Below are positions 1 to 26,414 of a DNA stretch of 30,792 nt, one piece after another. The stretch lies in the IMG/VR virus record IMGVR_UViG_3300025137_000168, positions 1 to 30,792 of that record, one strand, 5' to 3'. Below the pieces are notes generated by a model. It ran no database searches. It was not told where the DNA came from and worked only from the letters and a program-made list of their open reading frames with translations. This DNA is from a virus. Numbering within the stretch: the stretch's first letter is position 1; the number at the start of each line of letters is the position of its first letter. Position numbers and translations under genes: made by a program.

Positions 1-3000
1 GTTATGTAAATCTGTATCAGCATCAACTTCTTTATATTCAATTGATGTGACTTTCTCAACTTCATTACCTTTACATCTTATTTCATCACCAATTTCTAAT
101 TGGTCAACATCTAATTGTGTATAATTTTTATTAGACATTTCTTTATTACAAGATTTCCAACCATCAGTTGTCATAAATGGGTGGTCTTCTGTTACAAAGA
201 AACCTTTATTGTTTATGTTTGTTAATCTTCTACCATTTGTTTTAGGACTTAAAATTAATTTTACTTCATTGATTGTATCAAATTGTCCTAGTAACTTATC
301 ACCTATTATAATCTCTTCTACTTTTTTCTCGGTACCATCTGCAAGTGTCATTAAGGTACCAGGCATGAAACAACCCATTCCTCCTTGGTTTCGTCGTGGT
401 TGAGGTATTGCTTCAGACAATGTTCTATTTGATGTTGTGCTGGTTCTTACAACTTGAATTTCTCTTGTTGATGTAAATACCCCTCTGACAGTTTCTTGTA
501 AACCTTTTGCTACATAATCCGCTTCGGCAGATGTTGCTACATTTGTTCTATCTTCTGAGTTTGTAGAAGAACTTGTTAATCTAAAAATTCTTTTACCCGT
601 TCTCCATCTAGGATTTGCTTCTGTGTTAGGGTCGGGTATTGCAAATGTACCCGTTGCTGTTCCGTTTGTATCTGTAATAATACTTCCACCTGATGAACCA
701 CCTGTGGGTGTGACATAGGTATTGATATCTTCATTATCAAAGAAAGCATATACTCTTGTGTTTGGTCGCATACCTCTTGCAGTAAACGATATATCTCTTG
801 CTCTTATAAAAGGAATAAAGTTAACACCAACAACTCTATCACCTAAATTTTCTGTTACTGTTAATGGAACTGCTGTTGAACGAATACCACTTCTTGTTTG
901 ACCAGTTCTTCTAACATTTCCAGAAGTTCCTGTCCATTGTGTTTGCCATTCATTCCATTCTGTACCCATAGGTATTTCTGTAATATTAGGATTTGTTAAT
1001 CCTAACTCGTCTACTAAATTATCAAAAGCACCTCTAACATTAATAGTTAAGTCAGGTACTCTTAAAACATCTTTCCACATGTCTACAGGTGGGTCTAAAT
1101 CTATTTTACCAATCCAATTAAAAACTGCATATGGATTTAAATTTTCTGTAGCAGTTGCATAAGGAACATCAATAACCGTTTCTTCTGTATAAGGTAATGT
1201 TATTAAATCACCAGTTTTTTGATAACCTGCATCTGTTCTATCTGCTTCAATGATTGCTGTACCGTCTTGGTCAACTTCTTCTAAATCAACAGCATCAGAA
1301 AAATATAAACCTCTTCCTTCACCTGTTGTTCTATCTACTGCAAACCTGTAATCATTGTTAGATACATCACCAATATTATGACCAGAAAAGTTATCTACGA
1401 CAAATCCGTTTTTAAATCTATCAAATCCATCAGCATCTTGTATTTGTAATGACTTTGAATCTATTTCTAACATAGAAAGTTGTGTATAGTATTCTGTATT
1501 TGATATTCTTTTTTCTAATTCTCCAATATCTCTCATAGTATATCTTTTTGTATCTTGTAAATCAACTTCGACATCAGATGTAGACAATGTGTAAGAAGGA
1601 ACATTTACAAGTGCAGTATATAAATGACCTTCTAAACTTGATGGTGCTTCTGGTATTATTGCAGGTGCACCTTTTGAAACTCTAAATTCACCATTTCTTG
1701 TTAAGAAAATTTTATCTATTCTTTTAAGATAAAATTCAAAATCAGCAGTTATGTCATTATTAAACTCAACAACATCACAATCAGATGCTCCTGTACCATC
1801 ATAACTCCTATCAGAATTTCCTGAACCTATTGTAGATGCATCATCAACTCTAGGTCTAAAATCTAGACAATCTCTTAACTGAAAAATCTCACCTGTTGTA
1901 TCAGAAGTATATGAAGGAATATTTTCATAGTCTATAATACCTGAATAACTGTCTACATCAAAATAATCACCTGTACCATGTGAGAAGAAATCAAAATCAA
2001 TTAGTAATCTTCCTGTGGGCACTAACTTACCAGGTTTTAATTTAATTCTACCTACATCATAATAATTATCTCTTTGACCATTATCTAAATCAAATCTATC
2101 TGTTATATCTGTATGACTTGTTGTTGCTCCGGTACTAAAATCTGGCGCCATGTAAACTTTATTTAAAGCATTAATATCTGCTTTACTTAAACTAATTACA
2201 CCACTCTCTATTGTTGCTTGTGTTGAAACTGCAAGTGTTTCGTCTTCATTTAATGTTTTTGATTTAGAAGGTGCTATACTTCTTGTAACTGTTGCAAGTA
2301 TTTTTACCTTATGACCATTAAAATTTGCACCAAAGTCAAGTGTTAGTGTTCTACCCGTTGGTGAACCTGAAAGGGCAAATATTGCATCACCTTCGTGATT
2401 ATTACCTGATAAATTTAAAACATCACCAACAGCACCGGTTCCACCAGAACCAGTTGACATTATTGTCGTTGAGAAATCATCATTATTTAATGATGCGAAA
2501 GTTTCGTTTGTTCCTGTGGTAATAGATATATCACCACTTGATGATAAAGTACCTGTAAAGTTTCTTCTTATATTAAAGTTTGTATCTGTGACTAAACCAT
2601 TTGCAGTTGTCTTTAATGTTTTGATTGTTTCATAAGGTAATTTAAAAATATTAGTATTGTTTTCAGGATTTTGTAATTTACCTCTTTGTCTTGTAACAAC
2701 TTTAGCAGTTGACACATCAGAACTACCAACAGCAACCGTTAAAGTAAGTGAAGTTGCAGAATCAATATATCTAATTAAACGAGTTATTGAAGTACCTGCA
2801 TTATTTGTAAATGTAATTTGGTCACCAATTTTTAACTCTGTATTAAAGTTTGTACCAGAACCTGTTACTGTAGAACCGCTATTTGCTACTGTTATATTTC
2901 CAGTTAAAGTAAAATTATCACCGTGAGTAGATGTTAAATCTGCATCCGCAGTATAGTTTGGTGAACCTGACATTCCAATTTGTTTTACTTCTGAGATATC

Positions 3001-6364: not shown

Positions 6365-6372
6365 TATTTATA
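6365..6372 (-). promoter_or_regulatory. T4-type late promoter for gp8
   Basis: The minus strand reads TATAAATA, the exact T4 late -10 box recognised by a gp55-type sigma factor. It starts just after the stop codon of the upstream gene and ends 16 nt before the gp8 ATG. The flank AAAAACAG immediately upstream is identical to that at the gp25 promoter. Confidence 0.8.
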
Positions 6373-16803: not shown

Positions 16804-16848
16804 TTGACATTTACGCCCAATCTGCTATTATAATAGTATACTGATTCG
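16804..16848 (+). promoter_or_regulatory. Early sigma70-type promoter with ACTGATTCG tag
   Basis: TTGACA at 16804-16809, 19-bp gap, TATAAT at 16829-16834 (TATTAT at 16826 would give a 16-bp gap), and ACTGATTCG at 16840-16848. The segment from the -10 region through the tag is identical to the promoters at 17136 and 19474. Confidence 0.85.
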
Positions 16849-17135: not shown

Positions 17136-17180
17136 TTGACATTTACACCAAATCTGATATTATAATAGTATACTGATTCG
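17136..17180 (+). promoter_or_regulatory. Early sigma70-type promoter with ACTGATTCG tag
   Basis: TTGACA at 17136-17141, 19-bp gap, TATAAT at 17161-17166 and ACTGATTCG at 17172-17180. The leader is about 28 nt with AAAGGACTAAAT before the ATG at 17201. Confidence 0.85.
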
Positions 17181-19473: not shown

Positions 19474-19518
19474 TTGACATTCCCACTGGTTGTGCTATTA
19501 TAATAGTATACTGATTCG
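19474..19518 (+). promoter_or_regulatory. Early sigma70-type promoter with ACTGATTCG tag
   Basis: TTGACA at 19474-19479, 19-bp gap, TATAAT at 19499-19504 and ACTGATTCG at 19510-19518. It lies immediately after the CobT-like stop codon and lets cobS be transcribed separately. Confidence 0.85.
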
Positions 19519-22815: not shown

Positions 22816-22911
22816 CTAGAAACCTAGAAACTTATCTATCTTTCTCACCACCCATATCATTATACCAAGAACGAGTGCAGTAATAATTGTTATAATTCCA
22901 CTAAACAGCAA
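22816..22911 (-). CDS. Candidate 31-aa single-pass membrane protein, TTG start
   Basis: A TTG at 22911 preceded by GGAGAGTCTT opens a 31-codon frame that overlaps the end of the Fe-S carrier gene by 11 bp. It ends exactly at the start of the next gene. The product (LLFSGIITIITALVLGIMIW, then VVRKIDKFLGF) is one hydrophobic helix with a basic end. Fit between neighbours and the SD support it; the small size keeps confidence moderate. Confidence 0.45.
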   Translation of the reverse strand: MLFSGIITIITALVLGIMIWVVRKIDKFLGF

Positions 22912-23182
22912 AAGACTCTCCACAACCACAACTTGCAGTAGCATTAGGATTAGAAACTTTGAGAAAACTACCACCAAGTTCTGTAACATAATCAATGGTA
23001 CATCCTAGTACATACATTTCTGCAATAGGGTCAATGTGTACATTTGCAACTGTAGGTTCTTTATCTGTAACTTTCCAGACGTATTGAAAACCAGAACATC
23101 CACCACCATTAACTGACAGTAAGACGTTAGGTGAACCTACAGATGCTAGATACTCTTCTGCTTTACTTGTAACAGTTACCAT
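22901..23182 (-). CDS. iscA: A-type Fe-S cluster carrier (IscA/ErpA family)
   Basis: A 93-residue protein of the HesB/IscA/ErpA family. The three conserved cysteines are present: C29 in NGGGCSGFQY and C85/C87 in ATASCGCGESF. These proteins receive and deliver [2Fe-2S] or [4Fe-4S] clusters to apo-proteins. The length is slightly short of host IscA (about 107 aa) but the core is complete. It overlaps the upstream membrane-protein gene by 7 bp. Which of IscA, ErpA or SufA it is closest to cannot be told here. Likely target: a phage or host Fe-S enzyme needed in infection (inference). Confidence 0.9.
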   Translation of the reverse strand: MVTVTSKAEEYLASVGSPNVLLSVNGGGCSGFQYVWKVTDKEPTVANVHIDPIAEMYVLGCTIDYVTELGGSFLKVSNPNATASCGCGESFAV

Positions 23183-25013: not shown

Positions 25014-25021
25014 TATTTATA
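25014..25021 (-). promoter_or_regulatory. T4-type late promoter for gp5
   Basis: An exact TATAAATA on the minus strand, 60 nt before the gp5 start, just after the stop of the upstream small membrane gene. Confidence 0.8.
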
Positions 25022-25190: not shown

Positions 25191-25445
25191 CTAGTGACCC
25201 TTTATGGATTGTAGTTCATTATCATCTCTTGTATAATCGTCTATTATGGTAAGAGTTTCACTTAATGTAAAGTTCTCTAACGAATAGAAATGTATCCATC
25301 TTTTCTTAATATTAAGCAAGTCCTTTGGTGTTAAGGTCTTTGTATAGTTATTGTTACAGTATTCTGTTAATGGTGTCCATATCTGTCTAAGTTCTTTATA
25401 TGTAAATTTGTTTAGTAAATCGTTATCTTCTGTGCTTTTGCTCAT
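25191..25445 (-). CDS. Unknown soluble protein (84 aa)
   Basis: An 84-residue, mostly helical protein (DLLNKFTYKELRQIWTPLTE, then LTPKDLLNIKKRWIHFYSLE) with no signal or membrane segment. Its ATG overlaps the stop of the 22-aa candidate upstream (ATGA), with GGAGAT as ribosome site. It is part of the early-promoter unit that begins at 26363. No family recognised. Confidence 0.6.
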   Translation of the reverse strand: MSKSTEDNDLLNKFTYKELRQIWTPLTEYCNNNYTKTLTPKDLLNIKKRWIHFYSLENFTLSETLTIIDDYTRDDNELQSIKGH

Positions 25446-25510
25446 ATAATCTCCAGTGCTTTAGCAATGATTAATATCGTAATAACTATCATAATTCCAT
25501 CTAAATTCAA
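25442..25510 (-). CDS. Candidate 22-aa membrane micropeptide
   Basis: A TTG at 25510 overlaps the stop of the cytochrome gene (CATTGA) and follows AAAAAGAGG. The frame encodes MNLDGIMIVITILIIAKALE plus two residues and stops at the start of the next gene as ATGA. The perfect overlap on both sides and single hydrophobic helix make it plausible, but it is very short. Confidence 0.4.
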   Translation of the reverse strand: MNLDGIMIVITILIIAKALEII

Positions 25511-25911
25511 TGTGCTAACCTCTTTTTCTCTAGGTAATCAAGTATAATCTTCATATCTGCTTCTTTCTTTATACCTGTCCACATCATCTTCGTGTTTTTT
25601 ACATCTTTACCAAAGTATGCTTGTCTGGTCTTTCTATCGGACAACCAATTTTTCAGCGATTCTCTATCCCAGACTATGTCAGAGTTTTTAAGGTAATCAG
25701 AGTATCTGTACCCTTTTACCTGACCTGCTTTACTATTAAATACTCCCCATAGGTTCGGACCCATTCCACCTTTCTTTCCTTCGTCTATCTTATGACAACC
25801 AGCACATTTGCGAAACTCTTGGTCTATTGCGTAAGCAGTACCTATTGCTACAAACACTGCTATTACTATTGATACTAAAAATCCTATCCCTAATAGGTTT
25901 AATTTGTTCAT
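25507..25911 (-). CDS. Class I c-type cytochrome, membrane-anchored or exported
   Basis: A 134-residue protein with an N-terminal hydrophobic segment (LLGIGFLVSIVIAVFVAIGT, possible cleavage after AYA at 28) and a covalent haem motif CAGCH at residues 36-40. GPNLWGVFNSKAGQVKGYRY and SDYLKNSDIVWDRESLKNWL are classic of alphaproteobacterial cytochrome c2/c550 types. NTKMMWTG supplies the distal Met (109 or 110), so a His/Met low-spin haem is expected. It acts on the periplasmic side and needs host cytochrome maturation. It overlaps the upstream exported-protein gene (ATGA) and is transcribed from a consensus early promoter, not a late one. A role in keeping host respiration running is inference. 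Confidence 0.9.
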   Translation of the reverse strand: MNKLNLLGIGFLVSIVIAVFVAIGTAYAIDQEFRKCAGCHKIDEGKKGGMGPNLWGVFNSKAGQVKGYRYSDYLKNSDIVWDRESLKNWLSDRKTRQAYFGKDVKNTKMMWTGIKKEADMKIILDYLEKKRLAH

Positions 25912-26363
25912 AATTGCTCTCCTGGATATAGTTCTAAGTAAATAAAGTTTTGATTATACTCTGGTGCTATATTCTCTGACACTAGACACATAATCTGCGT
26001 TATTGTGTGTAATTCTAATATTGCTATCTTACTCATATGATATTTACCATTCGTAAAATTACTCTTTATTAATATGTAGGTGTGGTTTCCACTCTCGTTG
26101 ATACCTCTAAATGCTCTTACATATCCTTTTGCAGTCATTCTATTCATTATAACATCATCTTTATCACATAGCAACCCTTTATTAATCATCATTGCGTATT
26201 TACCATCGTCCTCTTCACCTTGTTGTAACCACTCTGGTTCTGCTGTAATACGACTTATTGGTGGTTCATCTGCTGTTGCTACACCTACTGCGACCAGTAT
26301 GGTCAACATTGCGATAACTAGATATACTGACCATATATCTCTTAGTTTGTTGTTTTTTTTCAT
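25908..26363 (-). CDS. Exported unknown protein, partner of cytochrome c
   Basis: A 151-residue protein. I start it at the ATG at 26363, because AAGGAT precedes it properly and the longer version (26390) would begin inside the -10 box. A hydrophobic segment (WSVYLVIAMLTILVAVGV) ends in ATA/DEPP, a good signal-peptidase site. The mature part (PEWLQQGEEDDGKYAMMINK, CDKDDVIMNRM, GYVRAFRGINESGNH) is a small globular domain with two Cys. The stop overlaps the cytochrome start. I do not recognise the family. Confidence 0.7.
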   Translation of the reverse strand: MKKNNKLRDIWSVYLVIAMLTILVAVGVATADEPPISRITAEPEWLQQGEEDDGKYAMMINKGLLCDKDDVIMNRMTAKGYVRAFRGINESGNHTYILIKSNFTNGKYHMSKIAILELHTITQIMCLVSENIAPEYNQNFIYLELYPGEQL

Positions 26364-26385
26364 TGGATATCCTTGTTTTTTCTCT

Positions 26386-26414
26386 ATCATACTATAATAT
26401 TATCACATTGTCAA
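26386..26414 (-). promoter_or_regulatory. Consensus sigma70-type early promoter for the cytochrome unit
   Basis: On the minus strand TTGACA (26414-26409), a 17-bp gap and TATGAT (26391-26386). It differs from the plus-strand early promoters by the standard gap and by lacking the ACTGATTCG tag. Confidence 0.75.

Follow-up and report, generated by a model that had tools for sequence, protein, structure and literature searches.

A predicted cytochrome c electron carrier encoded by uncultured marine T4-like phages

The stretch of DNA analysed here (the window) comprises the 30,792 bases of an IMG/VR viral record, an incomplete T4-like myovirus. A small operon on its minus strand encodes an exported protein, a predicted class I cytochrome c and an 84-aa protein (Table 1), surrounded by homologues of a gp5-type hub/lysozyme, a tail protein, the tube cap and gp6 (baseplate/tail block). 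The gp6 of the window is 59% identical to that of Pelagibacter phage Mosig EXVC030M, 52% to that of HTVC008M and 50% to that of the OM43 phage Melnitz, which makes the window pelagimyophage-like. The gene order around the cytochrome matches that of the isolates Mosig EXVC030M and HTVC008M, where unrelated small ORFs occupy the same position, indicating a cargo slot between two tail/baseplate genes. The cytochrome gene belongs to a bona fide phage genome and not to host contamination, and the same is true of the related contig L002. Elsewhere in the window, a 93-aa protein (22901-23182, minus strand; phrog_17776) is by eye of the HesB/IscA-like iron-sulphur carrier type, possibly another redox-related auxiliary gene. 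At the window's edge (1-350, minus strand), the in-window end of a 1623-aa open-ended tail-like protein looks by eye like a Hint domain (GCFMPGTLMTLADGTEKKVEEI...), a domain of the intein/hedgehog type.

Table 1. Features of the cytochrome operon and its surroundings in the window.
Feature	Position	Strand	Remarks
84-aa protein, function unassigned, next gene of the small operon	25191..25445	-	Homologue directly after the exported protein in L016/L017
Cytochrome c gene	25507..25911	-	134-aa class I cytochrome c, N-terminal signal/anchor
Met109, predicted distal haem ligand (TKMMW)	25585..25587	-	Aligns with the Met80 loop
7-residue insert TRQAYFG, residues 95-101	25609..25629	-	From alignment
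Haem-binding motif CAGCH, residues 36-40	25792..25806	-	C, C, H invariant in alignments
Ribosome-binding site AGGAGAG of the cytochrome gene	25917..25923	-	5 nt before ATG; read from sequence
Upstream exported protein	25908..26363	-	~151 aa from ATG 26363; ATGA overlap with the cytochrome
Sigma70-type promoter of the operon, TTGACA-N17-TATGAT	26386..26414	-	Same in L002
Late-promoter-like box TATAAATA	25014..25021	-	61 nt ahead of the hub gene (gp5-type)

As judged by sequence comparison, the product of the cytochrome gene is an intact cytochrome c of class I; the match is well beyond chance. The 134-aa ORF scores 33.3 bits against PF00034 (Cytochrom_C; cut-off 21.3; E 1.3e-7), is matched along the haem domain by solved PDB cytochromes c (phmmer, best E 1.2e-19), and matches the NCBIfam CycA/c550 model at E 3e-20, though under that model's own cut-off. 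Residues GP51-52, W81 (at the Trp59 position) and T107-K108-M109 align with solved cytochromes c, the last segment being the counterpart of the cytochrome c Met80 loop. The AlphaFold model, built from four input sequences, is of moderate quality with a pLDDT of 72, and its top five PDB fold matches are cytochromes c, at E values (0.02 or higher) that are not significant. The N-terminus is hydrophobic (maximum 19-residue Kyte-Doolittle mean 2.8), with a stretch of about 20 residues that ends in AYA, replaced by AFG in the relative L003; this pattern ahead of the haem domain is the basis on which an export signal was assigned. The preliminary description had proposed a c-type cytochrome with a CAGCH motif, a c2-like body and a distal Met, a membrane/export N-terminus and ATGA coupling to the upstream exported gene (overlap at 25908-25911), and our analysis agrees with it on each of these points.

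The most hydrophobic stretch stops 8-11 residues ahead of the first haem Cys, in a region that in cellular kin is occupied by a longer, polar N-terminal helix. Either the signal is cleaved to leave a protein with a short first helix, or the protein would stay anchored. The shorter stretch before CxxCH than in cellular kin suggests that the phage protein may be membrane-bound, with different partners.

For the upstream gene, the listed start (ATG 26390) falls within the promoter -10 box; the true start is likely the later ATG (MKKNNK), which is preceded by AAGGA and conserved in L002. The encoded protein has two conserved Cys and is predicted, with low confidence, to be mostly beta; its predicted model (pLDDT 56) gave no usable structural match. 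Relatives occur in L002 (87% identity) and in L016 and L017 (53%). In the latter two contigs the neighbour is followed by the homologue of the 84-aa ORF, with the same kind of stop-start overlap and no cytochrome, so that the cytochrome either entered a two-gene unit that was already there or was lost from it. Conversely, the cytochrome-bearing contigs L003 and L004, both fragments, contain no homologue of the neighbour. The preliminary description had suggested that the exported partner could be an electron donor or acceptor, or an assembly factor, and had pointed to the two-gene pair as a unit to survey; in some viral contigs each gene occurs without the other, and the neighbour was rejected as a dedicated redox mate on these grounds. 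The ATGA overlap and common promoter in the window and L002 would fit a dedicated two-gene redox pair, which the separate occurrences largely contradict and make very improbable.

The promoter of the operon looks real and conserved from its sequence, with TTGACA-N17-TATATT at the equivalent place in L016. Matches to TTGACA-N15-19-TATRAT number four in the window versus 0.3 expected, comprising the operon promoter and, on the plus strand, three long elements that resemble promoters and one another, TTGACAT...TGNTATTATAAT (16804-16834, 17136-17166 and 19474-19504). These three sit near peptidase-like and AAA ATPase-like genes. Because a promoter-like element is kept in L016, which has no cytochrome, the promoter is the neighbour's and says less about the cytochrome. 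T4-type late boxes (TATAAATA) lie on the minus strand at 6365, 7303, 12235, 16736, 25014 and 29881, 7-61 nt before late genes. The motif is no more frequent in the window than expected by chance (8 versus 6.9); all eight copies are on the late-gene (minus) strand, and six are at most 80 nt ahead of a gene on that strand, positions that amount to 6% of the window. The box at 25014 marks the return to late genes, and a scan of the whole window found no late-type box before the cytochrome operon. Early or constitutive transcription is plausible as a property of the operon as a whole. An early respiratory gene under a consensus promoter, as first described, is thus only partly upheld: the promoter is present, plausibly sigma70-type and conserved in L002, and early or constitutive expression is plausible, but the promoter belongs to the neighbour and the timing to the operon rather than to the cytochrome.

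Cytochrome c genes are present in at least 34 IMG/VR contigs, a count of contigs made by pattern-based scans, which overlook relatives; since some of the contigs are near-identical, the counts are not independent events. They form three sequence groups at about five genomic places, and all 34 copies keep CxxCH, GP and T/S-K/R-M. Group 1 consists of the window and three relatives that are 76-94% identical and keep every haem residue: L002 (94%, at the same genomic position), L003 (81% over the best segment, adjoining a phrog_461 gene) and L004 (86%, shortly before the DNA polymerase gene gp43; nearest isolate Melnitz). In group 2 (five contigs) the cytochrome lies shortly ahead of gp43 and has DoxX-like, Hsp20-like and DUF1127-like genes as neighbours; these names were given by eye, and the DoxX-like protein had no PHROG match. 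In L009 (4549-5363) and L012 (4576-5390), the group-2 cytochrome frame overlaps or abuts the end of the gene for the DoxX-like membrane protein; it follows the Hsp20-like and DUF1127-like genes and lies just before the DNA polymerase, a second, different neighbourhood. In group 3 (25 contigs) the cytochrome shares the T4 replication module with gp59, thyX and gp32, a site at which early expression would be expected. Among L205-L226 it precedes gp59 in some contigs and follows it in others within the same module, which suggests local gene shuffling.

A tblastn search of 50,697 phage records, from which records very near the window may be absent, with one protein per group and a SAR116 c2 gave no match. 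Phage cytochrome c is not found in the catalogued isolates searched and is recurrent in uncultured marine T4-like phages. The impression that cytochromes are rare among phage genes therefore stands for the catalogued records and not for the uncultured marine contigs.

In group 1, dN/dS is 0.07-0.16 (four contigs; synonymous sites are close to saturated in every comparison but that of the window with L002), by which measure the gene is under purifying selection. A degenerate copy, which the preliminary description had named as an outcome that would count against it, is not borne out. The varying content of the slot among relatives, and the absence of the cytochrome from L016 and L017, might suggest a recently acquired, functionless passenger retained by chance; the selection test, with synonymous sites mostly near saturation, and the intact motif in every copy contradict this, and we regard it as highly unlikely. 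Small haem proteins can act as peroxidases once the Met ligand is lost. Together with an adjoining exported gene of unassigned function, this leaves room for a non-respiratory use, either detoxification of peroxide or NO, or a membrane-anchored haem protein for superinfection exclusion or lysis timing. Such a use is unlikely, given that the Met loop motif is present in all copies and that the cytochrome is the only thing common to the three groups in their different gene neighbourhoods.

Compared with cellular cytochromes, the group 1 protein is at most about 42% identical over the full haem domain. Among 385 alphaproteobacterial genomes sampled across the class, its best match by a wide margin is a 130-aa cytochrome from G699, a genome of 1.4 Mb (101 bits; next 86). 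In this cytochrome the Met loop is preceded by the same insert of 7 residues (ISKKKEKAAYFGKDVKKSKM vs LSDRKTRQAYFGKDVKNTKM). Cytochromes of this type occur in 9 of 32 genomes of G699's order (small-genome alphaproteobacteria), and the TRQAYFG-type insert is absent from the remaining cytochromes in the alignment. Group 1 joins nine insert-bearing cellular cytochromes with support of 96 in a quick tree and 97/93 in a careful tree (insert columns left out, misaligned long-branch rows excluded), and sits on a long stem branch. The nearest cellular lineage of group 1 is thereby resolved, from sequence relationships, at the level of this order. The donor phylogeny proposed at the outset thus led to insert-bearing alphaproteobacterial kin but to no close reference, with only 42% identity. 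The nearest isolates infect SAR11 or OM43 (50-59% protein identity), and the kin of the cytochrome belong to another alphaproteobacterial group. Of the 32 genomes of G699's order, 29 have CcmE and 28 have cytochrome b, indicating that an assembly route and an electron donor are usually present.

Other sources were considered. SAR11 CycM lacks the insert and is not favoured as donor by the tree; given the short alignments, the AU test rejects neither CycM kinship (p 0.20) nor a single viral origin of the three groups (p 0.28), which is likewise not supported. The c2 cytochromes of SAR116, roseobacters and rhizobia were rejected as the source, being about 33-42% identical and without the insert. 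An origin from the OM43 methanol-oxidation cytochrome cH was prompted by Melnitz being nearest to L004 and L008 and by a cytochrome cH match; the best score in 399 genomes of Pseudoduganella's order, a sample perhaps without OM43, was 59 bits.

Among known systems, the closest likeness is to the insert-bearing soluble class I cytochromes c2/c550 of alphaproteobacteria (L155, L175-L183), which have CxxCH, GP, a Met loop and about 130 aa, as well as the insert before the Met loop (..YFGKDV..). They are 37-42% identical to the phage protein, which differs in that its hydrophobic N-terminus is longer and lies immediately ahead of the first haem helix. The SAR11 CycM type (about 180 aa) shares the class I haem domain and N-terminal membrane segment, with about 36% identity, but lacks the insert and has a linker some 50 residues long; the hydrophobic segment of the phage protein lies too near the first Cys for an anchor with such a linker. 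In function, the nearest parallel is the cyanophage plastocyanin (petE) of T4-like marine phages, a small exported carrier from the cytochrome bc/b6f complex to an oxidase or photosystem, found in 70 of 153 cyanophage genomes (PMC10452541). Plastocyanin is a non-homologous copper cupredoxin of phages with phototroph hosts, and the phage protein is by profile a cytochrome c, not a cupredoxin with copper ligands, so the likeness is functional only.

Several respiratory or sulphur electron-chain components have been associated with viruses, including cbb3 oxidase subunit I reads in viral fractions (PMC3474794), ccoP (listed in PMC12713726), cydAB (PMC12043954) and soxD, with cytochrome motifs sometimes lost (PMC8190135). 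Unlike the phage cytochrome, these are enzyme subunits or multi-domain proteins and not free cytochrome c carriers. A study of denitrification viruses did not observe carriers such as cytochromes in its phages (PMC8115048), and a global-ocean survey of viral metabolic genes says nothing of cytochromes in its main text (PMC11360552). Our full-text literature search turned up no earlier account of a cytochrome c carrier borne by a phage; as most subscription journals and bioRxiv lie outside its coverage, the novelty is provisional.

The best reading of these comparisons is that the gene is a respiratory electron-carrier auxiliary gene, a heterotroph-phage counterpart of cyanophage plastocyanin. 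A T4-like marine phage would have taken the gene originally from an alphaproteobacterium, and it would now be cargo in a variable slot. Most likely the host Sec system exports the protein, and the host Ccm system would supply its haem; it would then remain free in the periplasm if the signal is cleaved, or held at the inner membrane if the segment persists as an anchor. During infection, it would accept electrons from the host's bc1 complex and hand them to the terminal cytochrome c oxidase; with host gene expression shut down, this would keep up the respiration and ATP supply that making phage DNA and virions requires. We consider it probable that the protein is a working class I cytochrome c, carried as phage cargo to convey host respiratory electrons during infection. 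Against this reading stand the placing of the cytochrome's kin outside the groups that the nearest isolates infect, the shorter stretch before CxxCH, and a promoter that belongs to the operon as a whole. Alternatively, it might replace or outcompete the host carrier and steer electrons to a different oxidase or acceptor, in line with the low identity to any cellular cytochrome found (at most 42% over most of the length), the long stem branch, the tight N-terminal membrane segment and the Trp two residues after the ligand Met, and with the analogous proposal that cyanophage PetE hands electrons to cytochrome oxidase (PMC10452541). Electron diversion is rather improbable, as the insert and haem pocket resemble those of cellular kin and nothing points to a changed partner.

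For the carrier reading, the wider setting is that of viruses running host energy metabolism, of which cyanophages with photosynthesis genes are the textbook case. The equivalent for phages of marine heterotrophs has until now been patchy, consisting of oxidase reads, single contigs and haem-pathway genes (ALA synthase, ferrochelatase). The phage cytochrome fits with the tetrapyrrole genes that pelagiphage-like genomes are reported to carry (PMC11480375, PMC9599517), and adds a complete electron carrier, apparently maintained by selection, which dozens of uncultured T4-like phages have and the catalogued isolates searched lack. The finding of greater interest is its repeated carriage in marine T4-like phages. 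We tentatively suggest that uncultured T4-like phages of ocean heterotrophs may have captured cytochrome c repeatedly (at least three groups, possibly separate captures, at about five sites) as a standard supplement to respiration, playing in heterotroph phages the part that photosynthesis genes play in cyanophages, with group 1 as a shortened, membrane-hugging form that perhaps holds the carrier on the membrane and redirects electrons. The phage cytochrome offers a small, expressible target for asking whether such phages sustain or redirect respiration, and infected cells may breathe partly on a viral part.
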